A stretch of DNA of 64,000 nt. Source: a virus. The DNA lies in IMG/VR virus record IMGVR_UViG_3300046009_010174, positions 1 to 64,000 of that record. One strand, 5' to 3'. Shown here in pieces: positions 30,260-48,374 of the stretch. The notes under the pieces were generated by a model, which saw only the letters and a program-made list of their open reading frames with translations, was not told the DNA's origin and did no database searches. The translations under genes and the position numbers were made by a program. How positions within the stretch are numbered: position 1 is the first letter of the stretch; each line of letters begins with the position of its first letter.

Positions 30260-30290
30260 AATCACGACTTAAGGTCGTGATTTTTTGTTT
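30260..30290 (+). terminator. Rho-independent terminator after nrdA
   Basis: A perfect 9-bp stem (AATCACGAC / GTCGTGATT) with a 5-nt loop is followed by six T. It begins 7 nt after the nrdA stop. Confidence 0.9.
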
Positions 30291-30295
30291 TATGG

Positions 30296-30329
30296 TATTT
30301 ATAGAAAAAATATAGGGTATATATTTATT
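30296..30329 (+). promoter_or_regulatory. Pair of late-promoter-like boxes before gp25
   Basis: TATTTATA (30296-30303) and TATTTATT (30322-30329) lie 29 and 3 nt before ATG 30333. This is the first late-type signal after the replication block. Confidence 0.55.
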
Positions 30330-30332
30330 GTT

Positions 30333-30791
30333 ATGGCAAATGGTTTTACATATGGTATAAATTTCCCATTCAAGGATTCTTATGAAGGAAATTACTTAAG
30401 TTTATCTCAAACAACTGAACAAGAAATCAGAAGTAATTTAATTCATTTATTGTTAACTAGAAAAGGTACAAGATATTATTTACCTGACTTTGGAACAAGA
30501 TTATATGAGTATCTATTCGAACCTTTGGATGGTCCTACTTTTTCTGATTTAGAATCAGAAATTAGAGATTCTGTTGCGGAATTCATACCTGGTATAACAA
30601 TAACAAATGTGACTATAACACCTGCCTCGGAGGGTGAAGAAGATAAAGGATACTACATAAATGAAGATAACCAAAGAGAGTTTAGAGTACCAGGTATTGG
30701 ACAAATGGAACACACAGCAAAAATAAAAATTGACTACATATCAACTGATACTGCTTTTGAAAGTAGTGACTTTGTAATTATTAATATATAA
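30333..30791 (+). CDS. 25: Baseplate wedge protein gp25-like (GPW/gp25 family)
   Basis: A 152-aa protein (T4 gp25 is 132 aa). ATG 30333 is preferred over the upstream in-frame codon at 30285, which lies inside the terminator. It shows the family pattern: INFPFKDS at the start, the helix TEQEIRSNLIHLLLTRKGTR, then PDFGTRLYEYLFEP and a final beta strand. The lysozyme-like fold of gp25 is structural and joins wedge and sheath-initiator parts. It is followed 4 nt later by gp6, as in many contractile systems. Confidence 0.92.
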   Translation: MANGFTYGINFPFKDSYEGNYLSLSQTTEQEIRSNLIHLLLTRKGTRYYLPDFGTRLYEYLFEPLDGPTFSDLESEIRDSVAEFIPGITITNVTITPASEGEEDKGYYINEDNQREFRVPGIGQMEHTAKIKIDYISTDTAFESSDFVIINI

Positions 30792-30795
30792 TTCT

Positions 30796-32634
30796 ATGGC
30801 TAACAAAAAAATATCATATACAACCAGAGATTTCCAATCCATAAGAACGGAACTTATTAATTTTACAAGAACATATTACCCAGACCTAATTGATAATTTC
30901 AATGATGCCTCAATATTTTCGGCTCTATTGGATTTAAATGCTGCGGTTTCAGATAACTTACAATACAATATAGATAGAAGTGTACAAGAAACCGTACTAC
31001 AATATGCACAACAAAGGTCTTCCATTTTTAATATAGCAAGAACTTATGGACTGAAAGTACCTGGTCAAAGACCTTCTGTGGCATTGGTTGATTTCTCAAT
31101 AACAGTGCCTGTTTATGGTGATACTGAGGACTTAAGATATTGTGGTATTTTAAGGAGAGGGTCTCAGGTTAATGGGGCTGGTCAAGTTTTTGAAACTGTG
31201 AGTGATATTGATTTTGCTTCGCCAATAAGTTCGGATGGTGTTCCAAATAGATTAAAAATACCAAATTTTGATTCTAATAATAGATTATTAAACTACACCA
31301 TAGTAAAACGAGAAACTGTAGTAAATGGTACTACAAAGGTATTCAAGAGAGTTATTACCGCAAATGACATAAAACCTTTTTTTGAGTTGTTTTTACCCGA
31401 AAGAAACGTTTTAGGTGTAACGAGTGTTTTACTTAAAGATGGTACTCAATATGCAAATGTCCCTACAGCTGAAGAATTTTTAGGTTTAGAAAATAGATGG
31501 TATGAAGTTAAAGCATTGGTTGAAGATAGGGTATTCATCGAAGACCCAACCAAAGTATCTGACAATCCTGGTATTAAGGTAGGAAAATATGTTCAAACAA
31601 ATACAAAATTTATATCAGAATTTACACCTGAGGGTTTCTGTAAATTAACTTTTGGTGGTGGTAGTCAATCAGCAGACGAACAATTAAGAGAATTTGCTAG
31701 AAATGGTTTTGAATTAAACTTATACAAATATTCAAACAACTTTGCTTTAGGTAGTACATTGAAAGCTAATAGTACACTATTCATTCAATATAGAATAGGT
31801 GGAGGTACTGGAAGTAATTTAGGCGTAAACGTAATTACTCAGATAGGTACAATAAACTTTAATGTCAACGGACCTTCAACTTCGGTAAATACAAGTGTAA
31901 TTAATTCTTTGTCTTGTACAAATGTCACTGCAGCAATTGGAGGAGCACCAGCACCAACTACCGAAGAAGTAAGAAATTTAGTGACATTCAACTTTTCAGC
32001 ACAAAACAGAGCTGTTACAATTAATGATTATGAATCATTAATAAGAACAATGCCTTCACAATTTGGAGCACCAGCCAAGGTTACAATCACAGAGGAGAAC
32101 AATAAAATTAAAATTAAAATGTTGTCTTATGATGAAACTGGTAGATTGACTGAGGTGGTTTCAAACACACTCAAAAATAACGTAGCTAATTACTTATCGA
32201 ATTATAGAATGATTAATGACTACATTTCTATCGAAACTGCGAATGTAATCGACTTAGCATTTACGATAGATGTTGTTTTAGATAATAGTCAGAATCAAGG
32301 TGCCGTAATAACTCAAATAGTTGATAATGTAACTAATTTTATGTCACCTTCAGTTAGAAACTTAGGTGAAAATGTTAATATATCAGAATTAAGAAGAATA
32401 TTACAATCACAGAATGGTGTAATAACTCTATCAAACATATCGGTGTTTAATAAAGTAGGTGGTGAATATTCATCATCTCAAACATCACAAAGGTATTCAG
32501 ATAGTGAAACTAAACAGATTGAATTAATAGATGACACAATTTTTGCAGAACCTAGTCAAACTTATCAAGTAAGATATCCTGGTAAAGATATTAGTGTGCG
32601 TGTTAAGAATTTGAGTACGGTCAATTTTTCGTAA
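30796..32634 (+). CDS. 6: Baseplate wedge protein gp6-like (baseplate J family)
   Basis: A 612-aa protein (T4 gp6 is 660 aa). The N-terminus has ISYTTRDFQSIRTELINF and ALLDLNAAVSDNLQYNIDRS, the typical gp6/J start. The core has KLTFGGGSQ and LFIQYRIGGGTGSNLGVN, and the C-terminus TTEEVRNLVTFNFSAQNRAV followed by TINDYESLI, hallmark J-family segments. Gp6 forms the ring connecting baseplate wedges and triggers sheath contraction. It sits directly after gp25. Confidence 0.92.
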   Translation: MANKKISYTTRDFQSIRTELINFTRTYYPDLIDNFNDASIFSALLDLNAAVSDNLQYNIDRSVQETVLQYAQQRSSIFNIARTYGLKVPGQRPSVALVDFSITVPVYGDTEDLRYCGILRRGSQVNGAGQVFETVSDIDFASPISSDGVPNRLKIPNFDSNNRLLNYTIVKRETVVNGTTKVFKRVITANDIKPFFELFLPERNVLGVTSVLLKDGTQYANVPTAEEFLGLENRWYEVKALVEDRVFIEDPTKVSDNPGIKVGKYVQTNTKFISEFTPEGFCKLTFGGGSQSADEQLREFARNGFELNLYKYSNNFALGSTLKANSTLFIQYRIGGGTGSNLGVNVITQIGTINFNVNGPSTSVNTSVINSLSCTNVTAAIGGAPAPTTEEVRNLVTFNFSAQNRAVTINDYESLIRTMPSQFGAPAKVTITEENNKIKIKMLSYDETGRLTEVVSNTLKNNVANYLSNYRMINDYISIETANVIDLAFTIDVVLDNSQNQGAVITQIVDNVTNFMSPSVRNLGENVNISELRRILQSQNGVITLSNISVFNKVGGEYSSSQTSQRYSDSETKQIELIDDTIFAEPSQTYQVRYPGKDISVRVKNLSTVNFS

Positions 32635-32707: not shown

Positions 32708-35700
32708 ATGTCTCAATCATATAGAATAAGAACCGAAGTCGGTAAGGATAAGTACGTAAATGTACTATTAGAACAAGATTTCGAACAATTAGAAATCCTT
32801 TCATTAAAGATTCTTCAAAGTCAAATTTACACTAGATTATGTTCAGATTATGGTGTTGTTGCTGGAAGAATTACCGCTAATTCAGGGTTCGGTTTACCAA
32901 ATTGTAAAGTGTCTATTTTCATCCCTCTATCCAATGAGGATGAAAACAATCCTATTATATCTGATTTATATCCCTATAAACTTTTAAGTGATACTAATGA
33001 AGATGGTTATAGATATAATCTATTACCTTATGTTAAATCACATAGTGGACATAACCCGACTGGTTCTTTTCCTGACAGAATAGATGTACTTACAGACCCA
33101 AATTTAATAGAAGTTTACGACAAATATTATAAATTTACGGTAAAAACAAATGATAGTGGGGACTTTTTAATATTTGGTGTTCCATTAGGTACTCAAACAA
33201 TTCACGTTGATATTGACTTATCTGATATTGGTGAGTTTTCATTATCACCCCAAGATTTAATTAGATTGGGTGTTGCGACCGAATCTCAAGTTGCTGGTAC
33301 AGAATTCAGAACATCGACCGACCTAAATACATTACCACAAATAATAACACTTAATAGAACAATTAATGTTGAGCCATTGTGGGGTCAACCTGAAGTTTGT
33401 ACTATTGGAATTACAAGAACTGATTTCGATATTACAGAGGAATCAGGTATAGAAATTACGCCAACAGCAATTTTTATGGGTAGTATTTTCTCAAATGGTA
33501 ACGACCAATTTCAAACTCAGAGATGCAGACCAAAATTAAGAAGTGGTGATTTGTGTAACTTAGTTGCAGGCCCTGGTGAAATATTAGCAATTAGACAAAC
33601 AATATTTAATGATGATACAGGAAGACCTGTTTTAGAAACTTTCCCTTTGGAATCAGGAGGTCAAGTTATTGACGATAATGGTGCTTGGTTGGTTGACGTA
33701 CCTATGAATTTAGATTATGTCACAACTAATGAGTTTGGTGAAAGAGTAATTTCTAATGACCCAAAAGTTGGTATTCCGACAAGAGGAAAATATCGATTTA
33801 AAATTAAATGGAATCAATCACCTACTTTGTCTGAGGACATAAAAAGAGGTTATTTCTTAGTTCCAAATGTTAGAGAATATGGTTGGGAAGTAAATGTGGA
33901 CAAAGACCCCTTAGTTATACAAGATTGGATAACTAACCCATTATCAATACCACCAACTATTGACCCAAACTTTTATCCAAACAATGAATTAGCAAAAAAA
34001 TCGTATTCCTTTAGTTTAGATTGGAATGATTATGTTGACCCTCAAACTGCAATTAATTGCGAAGATACATTTTATTTAATGTCTTTTAACAAAGTTTACA
34101 CTGTATCACAACTAATTGACCAATATAGAAGGGGATTTTTACCGAATGAATTCGTTGGAATAAAAAATAATTTAGATGATGCGTGTGAAAGTGATAACGT
34201 AAAGTTTCCAAACAATGATGCAAATTATAGATTTGATTTATTGTATTTGTTAGCACTTGTGGCTATGTTTATTTTTAAACCAATTTTATTTGGTTTAGTT
34301 CCTATAATTCATATTGTTGCTGCTTTGGTTGCAATTTTAGGGTTCGTATTTGGAATTATTGTTGGGGTTATTTTATATATCGTTTTACCAATATGTTATG
34401 TTATTGCGGGAATTGTCGCTTTTTTGAATTGGTTAGGTGCTGGTTTGGAACCTATTGATTGTATTGACCCTGAAGAGATTAATCAAATTATGGACGATAT
34501 GTTCAATTTGTATAAAAAAATATTGAATATAAATTTACCATTGTTAGTTTATCCCAATTGTGAATTGTGTTCTTGTGAACCAGGAGGTGAGTTAAGTACC
34601 CCACCATCAAGTGTTCAATCCTCAGGTAATTATGTCGCAGCAGCCACAGAAACGGGTGGAAATGGTATTTTATCAACATATATGTTACCTACCCAATATG
34701 ATGTCAAAGATGTTGATGTTCAGTTTAGAAGTGGTATACAAGCTTTATTGGCTGGTGCTGCATATACTCGTGATGAACCATCAGGTAAGGCAAGAGTCCC
34801 CCAATTTTCAAGTTTTGGAACAGATACTACTTGTCCTTCTGTAAGTACACCTGAAGACCCAACAAAAATAGTTTTATTTACTAACAACCTCACTTTAGCG
34901 GAAAGAATTAATTTATTTAACGTAAAAGCTAAATATTTCGATGAGAATCAAATAACAAATCCTGGTGGAGGTGTAAACAGAATTAAAGTAACTTTCAACA
35001 CACCAAATAATAATCCACTTACAAAATTCCATTTGGATAATATGTTAGTAATTTCTTGTAAAGAAAATACTTTATCAAATTTTCCAGTTGGTCAAATTAT
35101 TACGTTCCAAGACCCGAACTTAAGTTCGGATATAAATATTAATGGTTTTACACAATTAAATCAATATGGAACTGGTGCTGTAACTGGTTCAACATATCGT
35201 CAACAACCTATAGAAAATGTACAATTATCATATGCAAATCCAAATGGTAATGGTTCTATCTCAGTGTTAGGGGGTTATGACTTATTTTTCTCAGGAGACC
35301 CACAATTCCATAAGTTTCCTATGGATATTGAGTATTTCCAAGTAATTACAGCTATGACCTATTCAAATTATACTGGTCAATGTCAGTCAGCAAGTTTAAG
35401 TAATAATAAAACATTACCACATCGTACTTTAGGTAATGATACATTGTTAAGAGAGGTAAATGGTGTTTACTCTTATAGTTATTATCCACCATCACCACCA
35501 CATCAACAGTTCCCGCCAGCAAGATTATACAATCCTATGAAATTGTATAAAAAAAATACTGAACAAGTTATTGTTTTTCTTGTAAGAGGTGTTGACCCAT
35601 ATTCAACCAGACAACCTTGTGAATATGATTTGAGTAGATTGTTCGGATATGACTTGGATGTTAACGGACTACCACAAGGTAACGTTATAGTTAGAGGTAA

Positions 35701-38056
35701 TTATAAACTTAATATACCAATACAAGCATCAAATAATAATAATAATCTAAATGGTCTAAGGGCTGTGAGACATAGTTTTGGGATAACAAGCACAACCCAA
35801 AATATTTTATCTACGTCAGATATAATAACGGGAATACCACTATACTATAATTCTTTTAATTTTGAATTGTCCACAAGTGGTTTGGCTAAATTTAGTAGTT
35901 TTACTTCTGATATGCCAAGTTATTATTCTAGTTTGGACTCATCTGTTCCTGCAAGTTTTAGACCAAACGATGTACCATCAACAAGTCAAATTAGTTTAAG
36001 TAGATTTGCTGAAACACCTTCAGTGTTTTACAACAACTCAGAAGTTTTGAGGGTGAAAAGTCATGCGGCAACCATTAATCAATTCGCAAACCCAACCTTA
36101 CCATTTCAAGGGGGTAATTCACCATATTATTGGGGGTTTTCTGTTGAAATTGATTCATTTTTAGGTACATTTCCTGCTGGTTCAAACACATCAGGCTGTA
36201 ATCGTGATTATTTTGGGGCATTACCTAATGATTATCTTTATGATACGAGAGGATACTATGTTAATGAAATTATAGATGGTGGTTCTTTGATGGGACAAGA
36301 AAAATCTCGTATTACAAGTGCAGTATTTGATTTTTATGCTGATGGTTGGTACTTTGCCCCAAGATACAACAATACGTATAATTTCCAAGCGGCAACAACA
36401 CCTACGAATGCAAGAAAAATAATAATGCGTTCAGATAGATTACCAACTTCATCAACCGTTACTGATGTACAAGGAAATAGCTTACCATTACAAAGTAATC
36501 TAATCTTTAGTTTGTTCAGATTAAGTGATAGTGGTTTAACTCAAGGAACTACTGGTACAGCATCATTCATTGGTGGAGGAGCTGACCCATCAAATTTAGA
36601 TTTAGTTACCTCTGAGTCAGTTCCCAATCCTGTTTTTGAATCATTTACTTGTGAGAATGCAGTACCATTATTTTGTTATACTGTAGGTACGAACAACGAA
36701 ATTTCAATAAAACCTGATGATAACATTTGTTACACAAATGGTGTGACTGGAAAAAAAATAATGAAAAACGGATGTTATCAACTTATTTCAGAAATCTTGT
36801 TATCACTACCTGCTGACCTTTTAATTGTTAATGAATGGACATCAAGGTTATTAGTTAATTTCGGTGCTTGTAGAAATGTGTGGTCTCATTTATTCGTTAA
36901 TAATTGGATTAATGGTTCTTTGTATGCGTTTGCATTTAAAAATGACAGAATTTTTGATGCTAATAATGTACCACGTAGTCAATATTGTCGTAGGACATTA
37001 TATCTACACCCAACAAACAATTTTTATTATAGAAGTAGTCCATACGTAACTGGAACAACGACTGGATTTATTGGTGCACCACCAAGTACTTTCAACATAT
37101 TACCTTTCGTACCTGGTATCCCTTTCGGTGGGAATGATAGGAACTTGAAGTTCCCAACAACTATGTTAGATTTAGGTCCTAGGTCTCAATTTTTACAAGA
37201 ACTTGTTTTTTCTGATGAATTTGATGGTTATGTTGTTAACAGAATGGATGATTCATCTTATTCTGATGTAAGTGAGATATTAAATCTACTTATAATAAGT
37301 AGATTAACAAATCTAAGTTTTATTGGTATATTATTGAGTGCTGCAGGTGGAACTATATTTGAATTCTTCTTAAATAATAGAGATTTATTTAAAAACCTTG
37401 TTGATGCTGATTATGCCCAAATGATATCTATAAGTTCCGAATTAGGAATTTCAGCTTTCGAACCTGCAAATTATCCTACTGACCCAAATGGACAAGACCC
37501 TATTTATATCAATAGCCCGTTTGCTAGTGATGTTGTAATGGGAATATTTTGGTCAAGTGATACACAAGTTAGAGATTATATATCACCAAAAAGAAATATA
37601 ATCAACACCAATGCTAATTTAGGTTCAATTTGTGGGTTTTCAAATATACCTGTGTTCTCGCAAGAAGTTCCATTCTATCAATGGCAAATACAACCAAACG
37701 CAGATGGTGGTGCTGCTGAGAGTATTTTTGGGTCTCAAGGAAACAATTGGTTTACTAACCCCATTAATAGTAATGGTACTTTTTTTAGTTCAAACTATCA
37801 ATCAATGGACAGATTACAACAAACTTCTAGATATTTTAGATATGATAGTAATACTAAAGGTACTGGTTATATTTTTGCTACAGACCAAAATGGTGATGAA
37901 GATGGTAATAGACAATTATGGTCACACAATAATCCTGACGACAACAACATCACTATTGGTGCACCATTCCACTTCTATTTTGGTCTGAAAAAAGGAAAAA
38001 CTTCTTTTGATAGATTTAGAAGAAAATGGATAAAATTTGATACAATAACTGATTAA
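32708..38056 (+). CDS. Giant baseplate-associated protein with membrane-like segment, 1782 aa
   Basis: It follows gp6, where T4 has the wedge protein gp7 (1032 aa). Residues about 50-175 resemble carboxypeptidase-regulatory/transthyretin-like beta domains (VAGRITANSGFGLPNCKVSI, DSGDFLIFGVPLGTQTIHVD). Residues about 511-581 form an almost unbroken hydrophobic stretch (LLYLLALVAMFIF, IVAALVAILGFVFGIIVG, VILYIVLPICYVIAGIVAFL), enough for about three membrane helices. A Cys cluster (CELCSC) follows. The remaining 1200 residues are beta-rich and Ser/Asn-rich with a second short hydrophobic patch near 1540. The membrane stretch is unusual for a baseplate protein and could insert into the host membrane on infection. 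Function is otherwise unknown; baseplate location is inferred from position. Confidence 0.65.
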   Translation: MSQSYRIRTEVGKDKYVNVLLEQDFEQLEILSLKILQSQIYTRLCSDYGVVAGRITANSGFGLPNCKVSIFIPLSNEDENNPIISDLYPYKLLSDTNEDGYRYNLLPYVKSHSGHNPTGSFPDRIDVLTDPNLIEVYDKYYKFTVKTNDSGDFLIFGVPLGTQTIHVDIDLSDIGEFSLSPQDLIRLGVATESQVAGTEFRTSTDLNTLPQIITLNRTINVEPLWGQPEVCTIGITRTDFDITEESGIEITPTAIFMGSIFSNGNDQFQTQRCRPKLRSGDLCNLVAGPGEILAIRQTIFNDDTGRPVLETFPLESGGQVIDDNGAWLVDVPMNLDYVTTNEFGERVISNDPKVGIPTRGKYRFKIKWNQSPTLSEDIKRGYFLVPNVREYGWEVNVDKDPLVIQDWITNPLSIPPTIDPNFYPNNELAKKSYSFSLDWNDYVDPQTAINCEDTFYLMSFNKVYTVSQLIDQYRRGFLPNEFVGIKNNLDDACESDNVKFPNNDANYRFDLLYLLALVAMFIFKPILFGLVPIIHIVAALVAILGFVFGIIVGVILYIVLPICYVIAGIVAFLNWLGAGLEPIDCIDPEEINQIMDDMFNLYKKILNINLPLLVYPNCELCSCEPGGELSTPPSSVQSSGNYVAAATETGGNGILSTYMLPTQYDVKDVDVQFRSGIQALLAGAAYTRDEPSGKARVPQFSSFGTDTTCPSVSTPEDPTKIVLFTNNLTLAERINLFNVKAKYFDENQITNPGGGVNRIKVTFNTPNNNPLTKFHLDNMLVISCKENTLSNFPVGQIITFQDPNLSSDININGFTQLNQYGTGAVTGSTYRQQPIENVQLSYANPNGNGSISVLGGYDLFFSGDPQFHKFPMDIEYFQVITAMTYSNYTGQCQSASLSNNKTLPHRTLGNDTLLREVNGVYSYSYYPPSPPHQQFPPARLYNPMKLYKKNTEQVIVFLVRGVDPYSTRQPCEYDLSRLFGYDLDVNGLPQGNVIVRGNYKLNIPIQASNNNNNLNGLRAVRHSFGITSTTQNILSTSDIITGIPLYYNSFNFELSTSGLAKFSSFTSDMPSYYSSLDSSVPASFRPNDVPSTSQISLSRFAETPSVFYNNSEVLRVKSHAATINQFANPTLPFQGGNSPYYWGFSVEIDSFLGTFPAGSNTSGCNRDYFGALPNDYLYDTRGYYVNEIIDGGSLMGQEKSRITSAVFDFYADGWYFAPRYNNTYNFQAATTPTNARKIIMRSDRLPTSSTVTDVQGNSLPLQSNLIFSLFRLSDSGLTQGTTGTASFIGGGADPSNLDLVTSESVPNPVFESFTCENAVPLFCYTVGTNNEISIKPDDNICYTNGVTGKKIMKNGCYQLISEILLSLPADLLIVNEWTSRLLVNFGACRNVWSHLFVNNWINGSLYAFAFKNDRIFDANNVPRSQYCRRTLYLHPTNNFYYRSSPYVTGTTTGFIGAPPSTFNILPFVPGIPFGGNDRNLKFPTTMLDLGPRSQFLQELVFSDEFDGYVVNRMDDSSYSDVSEILNLLIISRLTNLSFIGILLSAAGGTIFEFFLNNRDLFKNLVDADYAQMISISSELGISAFEPANYPTDPNGQDPIYINSPFASDVVMGIFWSSDTQVRDYISPKRNIINTNANLGSICGFSNIPVFSQEVPFYQWQIQPNADGGAAESIFGSQGNNWFTNPINSNGTFFSSNYQSMDRLQQTSRYFRYDSNTKGTGYIFATDQNGDEDGNRQLWSHNNPDDNNITIGAPFHFYFGLKKGKTSFDRFRRKWIKFDTITD

Positions 38057-39876
38057 TGGGAAATATTAACTATACAAGAGTTGTTTTGGGGTCTTTGAGG
38101 TATAAGTCAGCGCCAAATACTGATTTATCCTTTCAGATTCCATTTAAGAGTACTCAACGTGAGTTGATAGAGTACGATAGGAGTGCTGATATAAATTTAC
38201 AACAAGTATTCCAAGATGAAAGGGAAGCTTCAAATTTGTTCAGACCATCTTGTAAATTTAATGTAGTATTCAAAAATGGTTACACAGGTACAACCAATTA
38301 CAGACCTTTCGAACGAAACTTGTATTACACCAATGCTGAAGAAGTTATAAGTTCTAGATGTGTATATAATAATAATAGTTCACCTTTACCTTGGGGTGGT
38401 TTTCCACTATATAATGAATTTGATTTTATACGAAACGATTACAATGTTTCAGGTTACACAACATCACCAAATAATCATATAAATTTTGTAGCAAGTAGTG
38501 CAAGTACGTATAATTGGAATTTCTTTTTATCGTATGGGTATGATAATGATTATACCAAGGAACACACTGCAACCTTTTTGATACCTGATGATATAAATCC
38601 TTACTATGAGACAGTTAATTGGGTAGTAGGTGATGGTATCCCCTTCGTATTGACAAAAGGAACTTTCAATGGTAGAAATGTTTTAAGATTTAGATGTCCA
38701 ATAAAACATGGTATGGATGTGGGTGAATATGTTCAACTAAGTTCAAATTTTACTTACGATAATAGTAGATTATTTCAAGTTTATAGTTTGGGGGATTATA
38801 GTTATGGTTCTGAAGAGTATATTTTTAATTTGGTTGATTATGGATACACCGGAACAACATTCAGTGTTGGACTAAAAGGAACTGCTAAAAGAGTTTTAAA
38901 TCCAAATAACGTCACTGATACAATCTCAGAGTATTATGTTAGAAAACACAAAATAGTTACAAATGTTAATGATGCTTTATTAGTTAAAACTGGTTTTGAA
39001 GAAAATAGTTACAACAATGTAAAGAAGTATGAAAGTAGTGGTTTTACCCCTGATGGCCAGGCAAGAGTTTCTGTTAAGGAGGGAGGTCAAGCATATTCAT
39101 TAACCTTCAATAAAAAAATAGATATTGGTTCTTTATTAGACAATCAACGAAGACCATTAACAGAATTATTTTTTACGGTAATTTGGAAGGGATATTTTGG
39201 ATGGACTTTGGGCATGCCTAAAATTTCACCCCAAACTGGTTTCTACGGATTAAAACAAGGATGGGAATTCAATTTACCCTTAGATACAACAACTAATCAA
39301 CCTAGTCCTTGGTGGCAAAATTCAGAATCTAGGTCTGAAACAAATTTTCCGATTGGAACATATACAACAACTCAAACTTCACAACCTCAGTATGGATTTA
39401 CATATGTTGAAACTCTAAATGAGGGGGATGAGATGGATGGTGAGATATGTGAGTGGAATAATTTTGCCCAAACTGAAAGAATGATTGTAGACATATATCA
39501 TAAAATACGATTTAATCCTTTTGTTTTTGCAACTAACTCAAACACGATAGATAACCTCAATTCTAGAGGTTATTATTATAAACCATTTTATAGTTTACCA
39601 ATACGTGTTTTTTCTGATTATATTGAGGATGGTAATTTTAACACAATAGTTGGTGTACCCGATTACGCATATTTCTCAACATCACAAAATACCTTTAGAT
39701 GGAGGGATTTATATCCATATGGCTTTGTTGACTCAACTGGATTGGGTTATGATTATCCATTTTTAAATGGTGTTCATTATCCTTATGACAATTATACTTT
39801 TAGAATAATACCTGAAGGAACTAATTATACAGAACAAACTATAATAACTCAACCAACAATAGATAATTGTGAATAA
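38056..39876 (+). CDS. Baseplate/tail structural protein, 606 aa
   Basis: Not recognised by family. It is beta-rich and aromatic (NYTRVVLGSLRYKSAPN, YETVNWVVGDGIPFVLTKG, RFRCPIKHGMDVGEYVQLSS) without catalytic motifs. It starts on the last base of the previous stop (TAATG), so it is translationally coupled to the 1782-aa protein. By order after gp6 and a giant wedge-like protein it could correspond to T4 gp8, but no sequence evidence supports that. Confidence 0.7.
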   Translation: MGNINYTRVVLGSLRYKSAPNTDLSFQIPFKSTQRELIEYDRSADINLQQVFQDEREASNLFRPSCKFNVVFKNGYTGTTNYRPFERNLYYTNAEEVISSRCVYNNNSSPLPWGGFPLYNEFDFIRNDYNVSGYTTSPNNHINFVASSASTYNWNFFLSYGYDNDYTKEHTATFLIPDDINPYYETVNWVVGDGIPFVLTKGTFNGRNVLRFRCPIKHGMDVGEYVQLSSNFTYDNSRLFQVYSLGDYSYGSEEYIFNLVDYGYTGTTFSVGLKGTAKRVLNPNNVTDTISEYYVRKHKIVTNVNDALLVKTGFEENSYNNVKKYESSGFTPDGQARVSVKEGGQAYSLTFNKKIDIGSLLDNQRRPLTELFFTVIWKGYFGWTLGMPKISPQTGFYGLKQGWEFNLPLDTTTNQPSPWWQNSESRSETNFPIGTYTTTQTSQPQYGFTYVETLNEGDEMDGEICEWNNFAQTERMIVDIYHKIRFNPFVFATNSNTIDNLNSRGYYYKPFYSLPIRVFSDYIEDGNFNTIVGVPDYAYFSTSQNTFRWRDLYPYGFVDSTGLGYDYPFLNGVHYPYDNYTFRIIPEGTNYTEQTIITQPTIDNCE

Positions 39877-40714
39877 CAACAGATATTATATAACATTACC
39901 AGTAACCTCACAAGAGATAAACATACCAATAGAAATTACAGAAGATTTCTTAGGAAGGTCTGATAGTATTGAACTTTATGAAGATGAGGTTTTGGGTCAA
40001 GTTATTGGTATTCCATTTGATTTTGAAGTTGGTAGATATTCACATAATGAATATTCACCAACAAACACACAAACATCAGTTAACTACGAATTCTACTTTT
40101 ATAGTGGAAATCCTAACACTTTGAGTGCAACAACATGCCCTTTATCAAGTTCACCTGATTTAACACTTTGGGGGAATAATTATTTGGCTGAAGGTTTCAA
40201 TTCAAAAGAATTGTATTACTTTGCTAACTCTTTTGCAAATTCGTTTTTCAAACTTGATTTTTACGATAGACCTGACGAAAAAAACCAAACTAATTATTTT
40301 ACCGTAATAATACCAACTCAACAAGGTTTTACGACAACAGCGTCAATTTCACCTTACATAGCACCAGTACAAGTTAAAATACCAAAGTATAAATTGGATT
40401 TTGTTGGTGACAAAGAGGGTTTCTTTTTTTATTGGTTAAATGTACCACAATTTTTGACATTAGATACTTTTTATATGTCAATGAAATTTTTTGATGCAAA
40501 GTTGGGTGTTTTTGTAAGAATGATGAATGAACCTCAATGTCGATTACCAAACAAATACCAATTTGATTCAAGTATATATTTTTATAATAAAGTGAAACTG
40601 AATTACGATACAAAAAAATATGAAATTTTTGATGGTAAAAATCATAATAATAGAATAGGTACAACGACAAATCCTATGAAGTGGTACGAATATGTTAATC
40701 CACCAAATTTATAA
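39869..40714 (+). CDS. Tail structural protein, 281 aa (GTG start)
   Basis: Not recognised by family. The start is GTG at 39869, overlapping the preceding gene by 8 nt; no nearby ATG fits. It is rich in aromatic and beta-forming residues (YYITLPVTSQEINIPIEI, FFYWLNVPQFLTLDTFYMSM). The end overlaps the next ATG by one base. Coupled translation and composition mark it as part of the same baseplate or fibre complex. Confidence 0.7.
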   Translation: MNNNRYYITLPVTSQEINIPIEITEDFLGRSDSIELYEDEVLGQVIGIPFDFEVGRYSHNEYSPTNTQTSVNYEFYFYSGNPNTLSATTCPLSSSPDLTLWGNNYLAEGFNSKELYYFANSFANSFFKLDFYDRPDEKNQTNYFTVIIPTQQGFTTTASISPYIAPVQVKIPKYKLDFVGDKEGFFFYWLNVPQFLTLDTFYMSMKFFDAKLGVFVRMMNEPQCRLPNKYQFDSSIYFYNKVKLNYDTKKYEIFDGKNHNNRIGTTTNPMKWYEYVNPPNL

Positions 40715-41892
40715 TGGAAAGTACAATTTATAACATAAGAATTTCACCTGAAAATATATCCAACGATTTATTTATTGTTCCGTATTTCGGAGGATTTTCC
40801 CCACAAATTAGTGGAGACCCTTGTTGTGTTACGACTTTTTCAACAACACAAAAATATGAAGGATTTACGTATGTTTACTCCTCTATGACAAATGTTTTAT
40901 CAGGCGGTACTAATGGGACTTCTTTATTAACAGGACTAACATTACCTATTTTATTTACACAATCAGCTGTAGATTTCGGATATTATTCAGTATTTGATGG
41001 AATGATATTACAACAAGATGTAATGACTAATTTTGTCTTTACAGGCTCAACCATATTCCCAAACAATTTTACAGTAATTCTTTACAATACATCAGAAATA
41101 GAACTAAAAAAATACTTGAGTTTTTCGAACTATCAAATTAGTTGGGGCGATGGTTCAACAACAACTATTGGACCTTATACTTCAACACCTTATACTCACA
41201 CATATAGTTCTGCTGGAGAATATACAATAACTATGTCGGGTATGAGTCCTTGGGGTTATAACACAATTCAAAAAACACTAACAATACCATTCTCTTCAAC
41301 TACGATTAACAATCCAAATGGTACTGCGTATTTTACCCCACTTGGTGGAAGTTGGTCAGGAAGTGCTTTGAATTACAATTTTATTTATAGTGGTGATTCA
41401 GATTGTGAAACAACAATAGAAGGATTCAATACATTTTTGGGTAACTCAGATTTAATCATATCAGGTTATAGTAAATCAGGACTTAATGATTTGGAAGTTT
41501 ATGGTTCAATTAATAACCCTAATTTTTATTTAGGAAAATATAAAATCGGATGGCAAGTTACAGGTAGTTCCAATGTTGTTGGTACTTTTTGGGGACCGAA
41601 TCCAAATGGTTATACAGCATATACTATTAATGGTGTTGATTACTATGACTATCCTGATGGTACGACTTTATTCATCGTTAGTGGTGTGTCTGAGGTTGAT
41701 TATGTTTGTTCTGCTATAACTAAAAATGAAGCACTACTCAATGTTATTGATGAACCTGCAATACAAACAAATGTTTTTGTTGAAAGGGGTAAGAATTCGG
41801 GTATTGAAACGATGATAAGATTGGGGGAGGTTGATAATCTTGGGGATTTAGATAATTATGGCTACGGATTTTTTAAAGTTACAAAGTTGTAA
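40714..41892 (+). CDS. Tail protein with PKD-like domain, 392 aa
   Basis: Residues about 142-192 match a PKD/Ig-like beta sandwich: ISWGDGSTTTIGPY, THTYSSAGEYTITMSG, ending in KTLTIPF. The rest is Ser/Thr/Gly-rich with a Cys pair near residue 36 (DPCC) and a beta C-terminus. PKD modules are common in Bacteroidota surface adhesins and polysaccharide-binding proteins, so host-surface binding is a reasonable inference. Coupled to the previous gene by TAATG. Confidence 0.7.
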   Translation: MESTIYNIRISPENISNDLFIVPYFGGFSPQISGDPCCVTTFSTTQKYEGFTYVYSSMTNVLSGGTNGTSLLTGLTLPILFTQSAVDFGYYSVFDGMILQQDVMTNFVFTGSTIFPNNFTVILYNTSEIELKKYLSFSNYQISWGDGSTTTIGPYTSTPYTHTYSSAGEYTITMSGMSPWGYNTIQKTLTIPFSSTTINNPNGTAYFTPLGGSWSGSALNYNFIYSGDSDCETTIEGFNTFLGNSDLIISGYSKSGLNDLEVYGSINNPNFYLGKYKIGWQVTGSSNVVGTFWGPNPNGYTAYTINGVDYYDYPDGTTLFIVSGVSEVDYVCSAITKNEALLNVIDEPAIQTNVFVERGKNSGIETMIRLGEVDNLGDLDNYGYGFFKVTKL

Positions 41893-41898
41893 CTTTAA

Positions 41899-41906
41899 TA
41901 TTTATT
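41899..41906 (+). promoter_or_regulatory. Late-promoter-like TATTTATT box
   Basis: TATTTATT lies 41 nt before ATG 41948, close to the 39-nt spacing at 1117 and 3716. Confidence 0.45.
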
Positions 41907-41947
41907 AATAGGTTAGTCAATATAAACTTAGAATAAAAGAATAATAA

Positions 41948-42856
41948 ATGGCACTCGCAAGTTATGGTACTATAAGACCATCAGATGTTTCACCAGAAGA
42001 CGTTGAGATAATTTTACATTATACCCCATCAAGGGATGATACAGCTAATTTTGTATTGACTAAATTAGATTCAGTTTCATTATTGAGACCATACTTTAAC
42101 AATAGTAGTACTGGTGGTAATGCTAACATAGAAATATTAGGTGGTTTATATAATTTAAAATTACCTGCTGACCAATTTAATGCAATAGGAATTTACACAA
42201 TTTATTTAAGACCAACTCAAATAAGAACTAAAATATTAGATTGTGGTGTGTTATCAGCATTACCTAATGTTAGAGGTATAATAATTGATTTGAATCAAGT
42301 ACCAAATCAATATAGAAACAAGTTTACAAATCAAGGTTTAGTTGGTTTCAGAATTGAATATCTTAACACAGATGGTTCAAAAATACCTAACTTTTTTAGA
42401 GTAATTACATCTTCATTTTTCTGTGAACCTGTAATTCAAAATCTAACGAACACTTCGCAAAAAGCGATAAGATACAGATATACTGATAGTAATAGTGGAT
42501 TATTGTTTTGTACATTGTCACCATCATCAGCACCAACTAATAAACCGAATGCAATACCATACATTGGTCAACCTGACCAAGATATCATAATAACTAATAC
42601 TTTCTTCAATCCAATAACCCTTGATATTGAAGTTGCTGAACACGATTTCTCAACGTTGGCTATTGCACTTTATGGTAATCAAACCAAATCTATTGATGAT
42701 GGTATCTACACTTACTACGATAGTCAAAATAACATATACAGACAATATAACCTATACGAAATCAGAGACCAGTTTAATGAGCTTCTATTTGAGGTAAGAC
42801 AAGACAGAGGTAATAATATAGATTTCAGTAAAAACTTCACTAACATCACTTCGTAA
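41948..42856 (+). CDS. Tail structural protein, 302 aa
   Basis: Not assigned to a T4 gene. It begins LASYGTIRPSDVSPEDVEII and includes NFVLTKLDSVSLLRPYFNN, GIYTIYLRPTQIRTKILDCG and a C-terminal segment NLYEIRDQFNELLFEVRQD. It is beta-rich with no catalytic motif. It is coupled to the next gene by TAATG. Structural role and location are inferred from position between baseplate proteins. Confidence 0.7.
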   Translation: MALASYGTIRPSDVSPEDVEIILHYTPSRDDTANFVLTKLDSVSLLRPYFNNSSTGGNANIEILGGLYNLKLPADQFNAIGIYTIYLRPTQIRTKILDCGVLSALPNVRGIIIDLNQVPNQYRNKFTNQGLVGFRIEYLNTDGSKIPNFFRVITSSFFCEPVIQNLTNTSQKAIRYRYTDSNSGLLFCTLSPSSAPTNKPNAIPYIGQPDQDIIITNTFFNPITLDIEVAEHDFSTLAIALYGNQTKSIDDGIYTYYDSQNNIYRQYNLYEIRDQFNELLFEVRQDRGNNIDFSKNFTNITS

Positions 42857-45800
42857 TGGCTAAATTCACATGTCCTCCTCAAACACCATCAGGTGCTGGT
42901 ACTTTTGCAAATAATCTAGTTGGTTTACAATTAGTTACTGGTGGGGGTTTGACACAAGGAACATTTAATTTTACACTTTCGGCAAGTGAAAAAGTTAATA
43001 GAAACTTTTCCACTGGTACTTTTTCTAATCCAATCAGTTTGGATTCGATGGGTATCATAGATATTAATCAAGCCAAAGCTATTATAGAAAATAATTACAA
43101 AGTTTATCCAAATTTTGATTTAACTCAAGTTACAAACTTTGTTTTATATGGGTCTATGGCCAAAAGGATGTCAGCTGCAGTAACACAAGTTATTAGTTAT
43201 TTTCCTGCAGCACTAGAATCAACGACATTAAGATTGGATTATTCCACTGGTGTAACAGCATTTAATGTTGTTTTCAGTTTACAATATAATGAAACAACGT
43301 TTGAATTAGACCTTACCAAAATAAGAAATCCTTTTGGAATTGATTATACAACTAACTCAACTAGAAATCTGTCCCTCAGAGAGATACCAGTATCAACATT
43401 GAGGAATATGACATTAGAATATGCCAAGTATTCCTTATATTATAATGAAATTGGGTATCAAGTTAAACGTATAGTACCAACAAATTCTTTAACATCAGGT
43501 AATTTAAGTATTACTGTCGTTGGTAATCCATTTTCAGGTGAAACGAATGTTTTTGGAAATATTATAATAAGACCAAATGATAGTGAAGTTAATAAAGTTT
43601 TTAATGAAAATTTAGACGAAGTTGAAAACTTCTTATTAAATAGAACATCAACACCGATATATACAGCATCTTTCGTCATCCCTAAAGAAGCTGATGATGG
43701 AACGTATTACTCCGATAATGCTTCGGTAACTTGGCCAATATTGGGATTATGGAATTTGGACATTATCTCAAGCACTTTTGTTGATTACTTAACAGTGTTG
43801 AACGACATCAGTGTATCATTTGATTCATATAGGACAAATCTTGTATCAAGATTTTTTACAACACCAGCATTTAAAGAATTTGATACCATTGGTCAAAAAA
43901 TGGATAAAGTTCTCCAAATCTATGGTAGAAGTTTTGATGAGGTAAATAAATATATCACAAGTTTATCTTATGTTACATCGGTTAACTACAATGTAAGAAA
44001 TGACATCCCATCTCAATTATTAAGAAATTTAGCTCAAACTTTAGGTTGGCAGACGAATATTTCACCGATAACTAATACTGATTTTTTAAACTCTGTTTTT
44101 GGTCAAACAAATCAAGAAAAATCTATGTTCAGTGGGGTTCCAGTTGCTCAAACACCCGATGAATTGAATTATCAATTTTACAGAAATGTCTTATTGAATA
44201 CCGCTTATTTATTCAAATCAAAAGGTACTAGAAAATCAATTGAAAATTTGTTAAGATTAATTGGTGCACCTGAAGCTTTGGTTGAATTTAATGAGTACGT
44301 TTACTTAGCCGACCAACGAATTAATATAAATAAGTTTAATAGTTATTATGCACAAATTTCAGGTGGTACTTTAGTAGAACAAACACCAACACTAGAAAGT
44401 TCGAATGTCTTCACTTTGTTTGGCGTACAATATACTGGATTTACAACTACTGTAACAATAAAAGACGTTAATATAACAATTGATGAATTCCCAATTGACG
44501 AATTTGGATTTCCCAAACCAATAACGGATAGTGAAGCTTATTTTTTTCAGATAGGTAGTGGATGGTTTGAACAAACCCCACAACACAGAGCACCTGAACA
44601 AGTGAATTCAACTTTAAGTGTTTTCACAGGACTGAATCCCGATTATCAAACAAGTTTAAAACCATACACTTATGGTCAAGAATATTTAGACAGATTCAGA
44701 AAATTTCCATTTATTCAATTAGGCTATAATATTTCACCATCTGTTGATAATAACAAATCTTGGTACGATTCTGAAGTACTACTAAGAGTTAACTTAGATG
44801 GTAATATTAACGCAAGATACTTCGTTGCTGATGACAAATTAGTTTTAAATGTTAAGAATACTGAGATATTTTTGAATCCTGCACAAGGACTTTTATATGA
44901 TGTTTGGTATATGTCACGTTTGTACAATTATCCAATACCAAATCAAGGTATGAATTATGTCAATCCGAATGGGTGTTTTCCAAACGCGGCAAGTTGCTAC
45001 CCTGATAGAAATGGTGTTGATTGGACGATTATTAACCCACAACCAAAACAAAAAACCTTCTTCGAATTTGCTCAAACATTTTGGAAGAATACGATTAATG
45101 TAAGAAATAGACAATATTCTACTGATGGTAAAACTAGTGGTTACCCAACACTACAATCAATTTATTGGAAATATTTACAATCATTACAAGATGTGAATAT
45201 AGCAAACAATAATTTCACTTACCAAACTATGATAGAATACGTTAATGGTTTGGGTGATTATTGGATACGCTTAATTGAACAAATGGTTCCAGCAACAACC
45301 ATTTGGAATACTGGTGTCAAGTTAGAAAACTCAATTTTCCATAGACAGAAATTTCAATGGAAAAGACAAAGAGGTTGTCAGATTATATTAGATACACCAC
45401 CACCAACACCTGACCCTGTTGATTTATGTGAGTGTATAAGTATTACTGGTGCTTCAGTTGGAAGTAGTACATTAATAACAACATTGAGTCCTAATGGTTA
45501 TGTTAATGGCAAACAATCATTCTTGGGTTATGACCCTTGTTGTGGTTTAGTTAAAGATATAATTATTTCTTATAATTCGGGGTCAACTCGTTGGGAATAT
45601 TATTATGATGGAACTCTTGTAGGTACTTTAAACTCAACATCTGATTGCCCAATTGGTAGTGTTTGGTCGAATACAAAAAATAATGTTGGAACTATTTCAT
45701 CAACTAATAGAACTATTTGCCCAAATCCTGCATCGTTTACACCATTGAGACCTAATCCTTGTAGACCATGTGAGTTGAATGATAGTTTATATACCTACGA

Positions 45801-46233
45801 TTGTCCTATACAAAACACAGAGTGTCCAAAATATCCTTGGTTAAGTGACCCAAAACTTGGTAGTTTTGGTAGTGTTTTAGGTAAATTGTTGAATGAATAT
45901 CTTACTTCTATTGGTTATGACCCAAATAATTGTAGTTTGAATACGTTAACCACAGAGTGGTATGTGGATATTAGGATAGATGATATTCAAGTTGTTTCTT
46001 ACCCATTCTTCAATGGAATAGGATATAATTTAATACCATTAAGTTATCCTACAACTACGAATTGGGACACAGCATTAGTTACCGCTATGAATTTGATTAA
46101 ACCACTAGGTTATGATTATTACTTTACTAGTGACGATACTATTGTAGTTTATAATCAAGTGTGTTCTGTGTCAGAAGCTGATATTAACTTCAAGTTAAAT
46201 ATCGGAATAAACTTCTCAATTTATTGTGTATAA
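42856..46233 (+). CDS. Baseplate wedge-like protein with gpI/gp7-type motif, 1125 aa
   Basis: Around residues 350-470 it contains VLQIYGRSFDEVNKYITSL, LRNLAQTLGW and FKSKGTRKSIENLLRLIG. The KGT-plus-helix motif is characteristic of phage tail protein I (P2 gpI), related to the C-terminal part of T4 gp7. This gene, rather than the 1782-aa one, may therefore be the true gp7 equivalent. From about 850 onward it is Cys-rich (DLCECISITG, GYDPCCG, PCRPCELND), with a C-terminal segment (WYVDIRIDDIQVVSYPFFNG) that also seems to occur in the next protein. The start overlaps the preceding stop. Confidence 0.7.
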   Translation: MAKFTCPPQTPSGAGTFANNLVGLQLVTGGGLTQGTFNFTLSASEKVNRNFSTGTFSNPISLDSMGIIDINQAKAIIENNYKVYPNFDLTQVTNFVLYGSMAKRMSAAVTQVISYFPAALESTTLRLDYSTGVTAFNVVFSLQYNETTFELDLTKIRNPFGIDYTTNSTRNLSLREIPVSTLRNMTLEYAKYSLYYNEIGYQVKRIVPTNSLTSGNLSITVVGNPFSGETNVFGNIIIRPNDSEVNKVFNENLDEVENFLLNRTSTPIYTASFVIPKEADDGTYYSDNASVTWPILGLWNLDIISSTFVDYLTVLNDISVSFDSYRTNLVSRFFTTPAFKEFDTIGQKMDKVLQIYGRSFDEVNKYITSLSYVTSVNYNVRNDIPSQLLRNLAQTLGWQTNISPITNTDFLNSVFGQTNQEKSMFSGVPVAQTPDELNYQFYRNVLLNTAYLFKSKGTRKSIENLLRLIGAPEALVEFNEYVYLADQRININKFNSYYAQISGGTLVEQTPTLESSNVFTLFGVQYTGFTTTVTIKDVNITIDEFPIDEFGFPKPITDSEAYFFQIGSGWFEQTPQHRAPEQVNSTLSVFTGLNPDYQTSLKPYTYGQEYLDRFRKFPFIQLGYNISPSVDNNKSWYDSEVLLRVNLDGNINARYFVADDKLVLNVKNTEIFLNPAQGLLYDVWYMSRLYNYPIPNQGMNYVNPNGCFPNAASCYPDRNGVDWTIINPQPKQKTFFEFAQTFWKNTINVRNRQYSTDGKTSGYPTLQSIYWKYLQSLQDVNIANNNFTYQTMIEYVNGLGDYWIRLIEQMVPATTIWNTGVKLENSIFHRQKFQWKRQRGCQIILDTPPPTPDPVDLCECISITGASVGSSTLITTLSPNGYVNGKQSFLGYDPCCGLVKDIIISYNSGSTRWEYYYDGTLVGTLNSTSDCPIGSVWSNTKNNVGTISSTNRTICPNPASFTPLRPNPCRPCELNDSLYTYDCPIQNTECPKYPWLSDPKLGSFGSVLGKLLNEYLTSIGYDPNNCSLNTLTTEWYVDIRIDDIQVVSYPFFNGIGYNLIPLSYPTTTNWDTALVTAMNLIKPLGYDYYFTSDDTIVVYNQVCSVSEADINFKLNIGINFSIYCV

Positions 46234-48374
46234 TGTCTTGTTTTTTAGATGTAGTAGTAAATAGTATAACTGGTGATTGTAGTAATACGTCCTCAGGTGC
46301 GTTTAATATAAGTATCAATGGTAGTGCTCCTGATTTTACAATTTCTTGGATTGACCCTAGTTTTGGTACAATTCCACTTAGTGGTGCCACAGGGTACACA
46401 ATTAGTGGACTTTCGGGTGGTTCTTATGTATTTAATGTTATTGATAGTTGTTCAGGAGGTAGTACAACATTTCCTGTAAGTGTCTATATTTCGACAGGGA
46501 CTTGTGTTACCTTGACAGGTGTTCAGAATACAACTTGTAATCTGAGTAATGGTAGTATTACTGCTGATACAACAAATTATTATAATTCACCTACTTTTAG
46601 TTTATACGAAATATCGAGTGGGTTTATTACTTCAGGACAAAGTTTCAACAATATCTTCACATTTAATTCTTTATCTGCAGGTACATATTATGTTATTGCG
46701 GACGATGGTGGGGGATGTACTGGTAAATCTGAATCATGTATTGTTAAGTCATCAACTACGTTAGATTTTGGTGTATATGTCATCAATGATGCGGGATGTG
46801 CAGTGGACTCAGGGGCAATCTACGTTACTGGTCAAACTGGAGTACCACCATACACATATTTGTGGTCAAATGGTCAAACAACCCCATCAATCACAGGATT
46901 AACACCTGGTAATTACAATGTGGTGGTGACAGATAGTGCTGGTTGTTCTAATAGTTTGGGTGTGGTTGTAAATGAAGTACCACCAATTGGATTGGGAACA
47001 TTTACAATTACAAATCCATCTTGTTACACTTCGGATGGAAGTGTAACAGTTGTTACAACTGGTGGTACTGCACCTTTTTATTATTCAGGTTCTAACGGAA
47101 CTGTAACAATTACTTTTGCTTCGAGTTATACATTTACTGGTGTTGCCGCAGGTAATTTCTCAGTTAGTGTAACTGATGCTGGTTTATGTAATTTTGTGGC
47201 ATCCACAATTTTGTTGACTCCGAATTCATTTACTAACGTAACAGTTTCAACAACCAACTCACTATGTAATAATAATACAGGTGTTGTTTCAGTTTCTCTA
47301 TTTGGTGGTTCCCCTCCTTATTCATATACTCTGATAGATTTCACAGGAAACTCAGCAACAACAGTTACTAATGCAACAAATGTAAACTTTAATGCCTTGG
47401 AATCGGGTAATTACACCTTACAAATTACTGATGGAGGACCTTGTGTTTTTACTCAAGCTGTGACAATAAATAATACAATTTTATATACTTTAAGTTCAGT
47501 TGTATCAGGTACAACTTGTGGACAAAATAATGGTGTTGTTACTTTAAATATAAGTAGTGGAGGTACACCACCCTACATCTATCAGATGGATGGTGTTTTA
47601 GTTAACACAAGTTTGTCAGGTTATACATTTTCAGGATTAGCACCTGGTAATTACACAGCATCTGTAATTGATGCTAATTTATGTCAACAATTTTTACCAA
47701 TATTAATACCAACCTCATCCTCGGTAAATTTTATATTAAACCCAACATCACCACTATCGGGAAATGATGGGATGATAGAAACTTTTATATTAGAAGGTGA
47801 ACCTCCGTTTAATTTAATATGGAGTTCAAACGCACCAAGTGGACAAACTGGTTTAACAATAACTGGTCTCACTGCTGGTACGTACAATCTAAGTGTTACA
47901 GATGATAATGGATGTACACAAGTAAGAAGTGTAACTTTATTCGGATACAATTTAATATCTTCATATCAAGTTTTAAATATTTGCAACGATAATTTTGTAA
48001 ATTCGGGTCAATTAATCAAAAAGGGACTACAACAGATGTATCTTGAAGGTTTTCATGACTTAACATCAGGTGATACCAATTGTTTACTAAGTGCCGCAAC
48101 TTTTGTTTGTGAAGTTAGTGTAAATGGGGTAACCAACTCAATTGGTTTTTATAATTCCACATCGTTAAACGATTTTCCAACTGATAGTGTATATTTTAAT
48201 GTTGTTGAAATATTATTATCACTATACCCCGAATTAGAAACAATAACTATTGATATATCGACAGGTGAGATATTAATTAGTTCATTGTGTAATCCATCCA
48301 TTGGGATGATTGATGCAACAATAATTGTGAGTGTAATAATTCTTTACAACATAAATTGTGTAAGTTGTGCATAA
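46233..48374 (+). CDS. Tail fibre with seven SprB-like repeats, 713 aa
   Basis: Starts at ATG 46233, overlapping the previous stop (TAATG). Residues 1 to about 570 form roughly seven tandem repeats of 75-85 residues. Each has a Cys and GS.. segment, a GG.PPY-type turn (GVPPYTYLWSNG, GGSPPYSYTL, GGTPPYIYQM) and an ending like ITGLTPGNYNVVVTDSAGC. This matches SprB-type repeats (Pfam SprB), named for the flavobacterial gliding adhesin SprB. The C-terminus (about 575-713) is a separate domain with FVCEVSVNGVTNSIGFYNST. It is probably a fibre or adhesin reaching the host surface. Repeat identity is strong; function is inferred. Confidence 0.82.
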   Translation: MSCFLDVVVNSITGDCSNTSSGAFNISINGSAPDFTISWIDPSFGTIPLSGATGYTISGLSGGSYVFNVIDSCSGGSTTFPVSVYISTGTCVTLTGVQNTTCNLSNGSITADTTNYYNSPTFSLYEISSGFITSGQSFNNIFTFNSLSAGTYYVIADDGGGCTGKSESCIVKSSTTLDFGVYVINDAGCAVDSGAIYVTGQTGVPPYTYLWSNGQTTPSITGLTPGNYNVVVTDSAGCSNSLGVVVNEVPPIGLGTFTITNPSCYTSDGSVTVVTTGGTAPFYYSGSNGTVTITFASSYTFTGVAAGNFSVSVTDAGLCNFVASTILLTPNSFTNVTVSTTNSLCNNNTGVVSVSLFGGSPPYSYTLIDFTGNSATTVTNATNVNFNALESGNYTLQITDGGPCVFTQAVTINNTILYTLSSVVSGTTCGQNNGVVTLNISSGGTPPYIYQMDGVLVNTSLSGYTFSGLAPGNYTASVIDANLCQQFLPILIPTSSSVNFILNPTSPLSGNDGMIETFILEGEPPFNLIWSSNAPSGQTGLTITGLTAGTYNLSVTDDNGCTQVRSVTLFGYNLISSYQVLNICNDNFVNSGQLIKKGLQQMYLEGFHDLTSGDTNCLLSAATFVCEVSVNGVTNSIGFYNSTSLNDFPTDSVYFNVVEILLSLYPELETITIDISTGEILISSLCNPSIGMIDATIIVSVIILYNINCVSCA

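Follow-up and report, generated by a model that had tools for sequence, protein, structure and literature searches.

Genes at the locus and identity of the giant protein

The window, that is the whole stretch of DNA analysed here, comprises 64,000 nucleotides (positions 1 to 64,000) of IMG/VR virus record IMGVR_UViG_3300046009_010174. It carries, directly after a gp6-like baseplate gene, a reading frame for a giant protein of 1782 amino acids. The genes of this region are arranged as follows:

30285..30791, + strand: gp25-like baseplate wedge protein (PF04965, PHROG 261)
30796..32634, + strand: gp6-like baseplate wedge protein (Baseplate_J; PF04865, PHROG 219)
32708..38056, + strand: 1782-aa giant protein with an ATG start, a conserved neighbour of gp6
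38056..46233, + strand: five downstream genes (606, 281, 392, 302 and 1125 aa), in an order kept in relatives

The order gp25, gp6, giant protein, 606, 281, 392, 302 and 1125 aa is complete in 103 loci, and the remaining loci agree with it but end at contig ends. Because this order is strictly conserved, the giant protein is most readily placed in the baseplate region, as a structural protein that probably binds close to gp25/gp6. Its gene position, beside gp25 and gp6 in a conserved order, is that expected of a T4-type baseplate wedge protein. Searches against Pfam, PHROGs, NCBIfam and PDB sequences returned no match for the 1782-aa protein, and no relation to known wedge proteins (gp7, gp53, gp8 and others) emerged from these libraries; fold comparison recovered a transthyretin-like domain only, a result that remains compatible with a wedge-protein relation. 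The downstream 1125-aa and 606-aa proteins likewise have no PDB sequence match, and the baseplate of this phage group is thus largely uncharacterised.

The AlphaFold2 model of the giant protein is poor overall (mean pLDDT 56.5, pTM 0.31), and its models are predominantly beta or coil. Residues 45-253 resemble transthyretin-like and carboxypeptidase regulatory-like domains (VIA-align Z up to 9.4 over 90 residues, rmsd 2.6), which tentatively suggests a transthyretin-like beta domain at the N-terminus. The C-terminal model gave no significant Foldseek match, and comparison with PDB structures yielded only Z values of 2.0-2.3. We also considered the giant protein as a tape measure protein, a class that is long, mainly helical and encoded between the tail tube/chaperone and hub genes. 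That assignment was rejected: the gene follows gp6, and beta structure or coil dominates the models.

Several other genes of the window drew attention in their own right. The protein encoded at 46224-48374 (+) contains SprB repeats (PF13573, E 5.6e-21); such repeats are typical of Bacteroidota surface proteins and therefore hint at a Bacteroidota host for this phage. A tail-fibre-like protein (52185-54380, -) matches the phosphatidylethanolamine-binding protein family PF01161 in its C-terminal part, residues ~614-713 (E 1e-11), which is unusual for a phage tail-region protein, and also matches TIGR00481 (E 1.5e-9, below its cut-off). The 1679-aa tail-region protein at 7095-12134 (+) shows a weak OmpA-like peptidoglycan-binding stretch at residues ~874-944. 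A cysteine-rich ORF of 518 aa (1131-2687, +), flanked by the genes for tail sheath and tail tube, resembles homing-type nucleases by eye and has no NCBIfam match.

Distribution of homologues

At least 596 stretches in IMG/VR encode relatives of the giant protein. Scans with divergent members recovered 328 loci in viral contigs, corresponding to 144 distinct homologues. Conservation was evaluated on 141 distinct proteins of at least 640 aa each, and a representative set of 65 homologues below 75% identity was drawn up. Neither a tblastn search of 50,697 annotated phage records with two queries nor scans of the GTDB species genomes found a homologue, and predicted viral structures supplied a single clear one, in Myoviridae sp. 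ctPuP5 (41% identity). Some homologues sit on contigs of 270-310 kb (L059, 308574 bases; L076, 272437 bases), which means that jumbo-sized genomes occur within this phage group.

Judged by gp6, the closest annotated phages are Flavobacterium phage immuto, Microcystis phage Mel-JY01 and LR756508 (gp6 identity 24-28%). A profile search found no giant-protein homologue in these three; other proteins follow their gp6. These post-gp6 proteins share with the giant protein a position in the gene order, but unlike it they lack both homology to it and a membrane-like segment, and no hydropathy segment above 1.4 was found in the genes directly after gp6.

A conserved hydrophobic stretch

The initial annotation had pointed to about 70 near-continuous hydrophobic residues at positions 511-581 of the giant protein and had described them as membrane-like, and both points were borne out. 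The features in and around this part of the protein, together with the N-terminal domain, are as follows:

32840..33466, + strand: tentative transthyretin-like / carboxypeptidase-regulatory-like beta domain, residues 45-253 (low-confidence model)
34184..34186, + strand: Cys493, upstream of the stretch (65/65 representatives)
34208..34219, + strand: P501 and D504 of an 'FPTND' motif, N-terminal helix boundary (each 65/65 representatives)
34238..34450, + strand: hydrophobic stretch, residues 511-581 (conserved in 141/141 homologues)
34238..34342, + strand: conserved long helix A, residues 511-545, predicted from periodicity and the AlphaFold2 helix
34346..34435, + strand: hydrophobic extension that varies within the family, residues 547-576; short or missing in some relatives in the alignment
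34559..34576, + strand: C618-x-x-C621-x-C623 motif directly downstream (C618 and C621 65/65, C623 62/65 representatives)

Kyte-Doolittle hydropathy (19-residue window) exceeds 1.6 across residues 508-583 and reaches a maximum of 2.97. This single-window maximum is within chance for the composition of the protein (shuffles mean 1.9, up to 3.2), whereas the longest run free of D, E, K, R, N and Q extends to 49 residues and never exceeds 39 when the protein is shuffled 2000 times. The stretch therefore stands out by its length and not by its peak hydropathy. Of the 32 window genes tested, every other one has a hydropathy maximum of 1.94 or less.

A hydrophobic stretch of 28-129 residues (median 66) occupies the same place in all 141 distinct homologues, and replacement by polar residues, which had been named as an observation that would speak against a membrane-like segment, was not found in any of them. 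The predicted membrane-insertion energy, a biological-scale estimate with parameters checked on glycophorin A and a LacY segment only, is below zero in 141/141 homologues (median -3.3 kcal/mol), as against none of 380 distinct neighbouring structural proteins (gp6 and the 606-, 281-, 392-, 302- and 1125-aa proteins). An independent hydropathy count, scoring segments above 2.2, gave 86 of 87 giant-protein homologues versus 0 of 381 proteins of the same neighbour genes. On two hydrophobicity scales, then, the membrane-like character is kept family-wide and is absent from the neighbouring baseplate-region proteins. Some 18-24 residues in the membrane hydrophobicity range, kept in relatives, are characteristic of a transmembrane segment, and the stretch contains them. 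Identity within the stretch is 0.27-0.52 compared to ~0.8 in the N-terminal domain, and the combination of low identity with retained hydrophobicity suggests that hydrophobicity, rather than sequence, is what is kept. Residues 1524-1555 were examined as a second conserved hydrophobic segment and dismissed, as most relatives have none there; insertion energies below zero outside the main stretch occur in only 4 of 125 homologues. The stretch is a real, strongly conserved and previously undescribed feature of a large group of uncultured, T4-like phages.

Helix architecture and bracketing residues

The initial annotation had proposed three membrane helices, and this count did not survive comparison with relatives. 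The number of predicted segments among 82 distinct proteins is one (14 proteins), two (44), three (20) or four (4), and in the alignment some relatives retain almost nothing hydrophobic beyond the first helix. A fixed architecture of three transmembrane helices was consequently rejected. Over residues ~511-546 the mean hydrophobicity of the 65 representatives peaks at 100 degrees per residue (permutation p < 0.0005), the periodicity of an alpha-helix. Helix A contains the kink residue P525 and the near-invariant H535, and its polar residues form a narrow stripe (517, 524, 535, 538, 542 and 545). A hairpin turn at K524-P525 is disfavoured because the hydrophobic phase is continuous there, with similar values on either side of P525 (17 versus 34 degrees). 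In the subfamily nearest to this protein, residues 547-575 are also in phase with helix A (22 versus 33 degrees), and AlphaFold2 predicts one continuous helix over residues 511-575 (block pLDDT 69-87). The stretch is thus probably one long, kinked helix with a narrow polar stripe, followed by a variable extension. Such a helix, with 34 residues conserved and 65 in the model, is longer than a single bilayer crossing, which counts against the membrane reading.

The stretch is bracketed by conserved residues. In addition to the cysteines listed above, C451 is invariant (65/65 representatives), while H535 is present in 64/65 and D510 in 58/65. With cysteines on both sides of the insert, it is a reasonable inference that they clamp its ends together, as a metal site or as disulfides. 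Apart from H535 the polar face of the helix is variable, and the flanks are acidic on average (+1.6/-4.1 per 20 residues on the N side and +2.2/-2.9 on the C side). Within helix A, conservation is higher at hydrophobic than at polar positions (Spearman -0.48, p = 0.003), a measure that is biased by alphabet size and uncalibrated on known membrane helices. This sign is opposite to the expectation that the lipid-facing side is more variable, although the entropy measure itself favours it. A hydrophobic face conserved over the polar face is the pattern of soluble amphipathic helices and therefore cautions against a membrane reading.

Possible roles of the helix

The explanation that we consider best, while holding it tentatively and at somewhat short of even chances, is that the helix of this baseplate-region protein is shielded in the virion, becomes exposed on the host and contacts an envelope membrane. 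The long hydrophobic alpha-helix would sit as an insert in the protein, with its ends joined by cysteines (C493 with C618/C621/C623). In the free virion it would be shielded, probably against other copies or adjacent baseplate proteins. A change in baseplate shape on the host would expose it, the exposed helix would enter or coat one of the host envelope membranes, and the contracted baseplate would thereby be anchored or sealed there. We infer the contact, its timing and its mechanical role; in favour of membrane contact are the composition of the stretch, its universality and its contrast with every neighbouring protein. The putative tape measure protein of this phage (5245-7056, 603 aa, assigned by position only) has a hydropathy maximum of 1.05 and no membrane-like segment, and another protein may therefore do that work. 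A bolder version, which we regard as rather unlikely, holds that the membrane-entering role has moved from the tape measure to the baseplate protein: several copies of the helix, each in a cysteine-clamped stem and bearing the near-invariant His, would move outwards as the tail contracts and fix the baseplate in a host membrane.

The main competitor is a stretch that never meets a membrane, and it is a possibility to be taken seriously even if we lean against it. Here the long helix would be buried in an oligomer core (e.g. three or six copies round the baseplate axis) or against partners, leaving only the narrow polar stripe exposed. An unbroken helix that repeats at 100 degrees and has a narrow, more variable polar face would fit such packing; the AlphaFold2 helix takes the place of bilayer-length hairpins, and the cysteine bracket suggests a structured stem. 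Burial accounts less easily for a hydrophobicity far beyond that of all neighbouring structural proteins, or for stretches of up to 129 hydrophobic residues whose second half is poorly conserved in sequence, and none of the neighbours was seen to carry a partner hydrophobic helix of similar length.

Two membrane roles raised by the initial annotation fared worse. A role in assembly, with the helix tethering the unfinished baseplate to the infected cell's inner membrane, appears unlikely. One would expect a segment of such insertion energy to be taken up by the co-translational membrane insertion machinery of that cell, and membrane anchoring of baseplate-type machines is known from thylakoid-anchored contractile injection systems (tCIS) and the archaeal T6SS (PMC8894136, PMC11566945). 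The acidic flanks are nevertheless the reverse of what the positive-inside rule predicts for an N side in the cytoplasm and make assembly anchoring less likely, and with one to four predicted segments the two flanks would end up on opposite sides in some homologues. Least probable of all, and by our estimate very improbable, is a pore through which DNA crosses the host inner membrane once the tail has contracted. A hydrophobic helix whose polar stripe bears a near-invariant His, in a phage whose putative tape measure protein has no such segment, would suit a pore. The polar face is variable at every other position, however, some relatives do without the second hydrophobic part, and the conserved unit is one long helix. 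Moreover, a gene beside gp6 points to a wedge-region protein, which in T4 geometry would sit well away from the inner membrane; in T4 the tube penetrates and leaves the baseplate behind on the outer surface. What stands of the original proposal is a real and conserved stretch, while the three-helix count falls and the inner-membrane pore gains no specific support. A membrane function of the helix appears likely enough to merit testing.

Comparison with known systems

Hydrophobic regions of this kind have been described in tape measure proteins. The first hydrophobic region of the TP901-1 tape measure protein is essential for infection (PMC5099701), and the tape measures of diffocin (CD1366) and Pam3 (gp16) have membrane-like regions, whereas such regions are small or missing in the tape measures of T4 and T5 (PMC10996793). 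Like the helix of the giant protein, the regions of TP901-1 TMP, CD1366 and gp16 are long hydrophobic parts of a tail protein, and they are proposed to enter the host membrane (PMC5099701, PMC10996793). The giant protein differs in that its gene lies after gp6 and not between tail tube and hub, in being beta-rich and in having no detectable sequence relation to them.

Among the baseplate/fibre proteins Cis12 and Cis13 of the Anabaena thylakoid-anchored CIS, a predicted transmembrane helix fixes the contractile machine to a membrane (PMC8894136). They resemble the giant protein in being baseplate-associated with a predicted transmembrane helix; the helix of Cis13, however, lies at the C-terminus of a small fibre protein and does its work within the cell that makes the machine, whereas that of the giant protein is inserted internally in a phage protein of 1782 aa. 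The putative archaeal T6SS membrane anchor Hbor_38620 and CisA of the Streptomyces CIS are likewise membrane proteins linked with a contractile machine, and their genes lie within or beside the cluster that encodes it (PMC11566945, PMC12237407), but they are separate membrane proteins of the producing cell and not, as here, a domain of a phage structural protein. We treat the resemblance to these systems as a lead. A search of the literature found no matching baseplate wedge protein with transmembrane segments.

Known membrane segments lie mainly in tape measure proteins, and how contractile-tailed phages pass or hold on to the host membrane is still poorly understood. Whether its helix meets a membrane or is buried, the giant protein represents a family without a match in the searched protein-family libraries. 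A universal membrane-like helix in a baseplate-region protein would point to a different solution or, if buried, to an unusual hydrophobic baseplate core.
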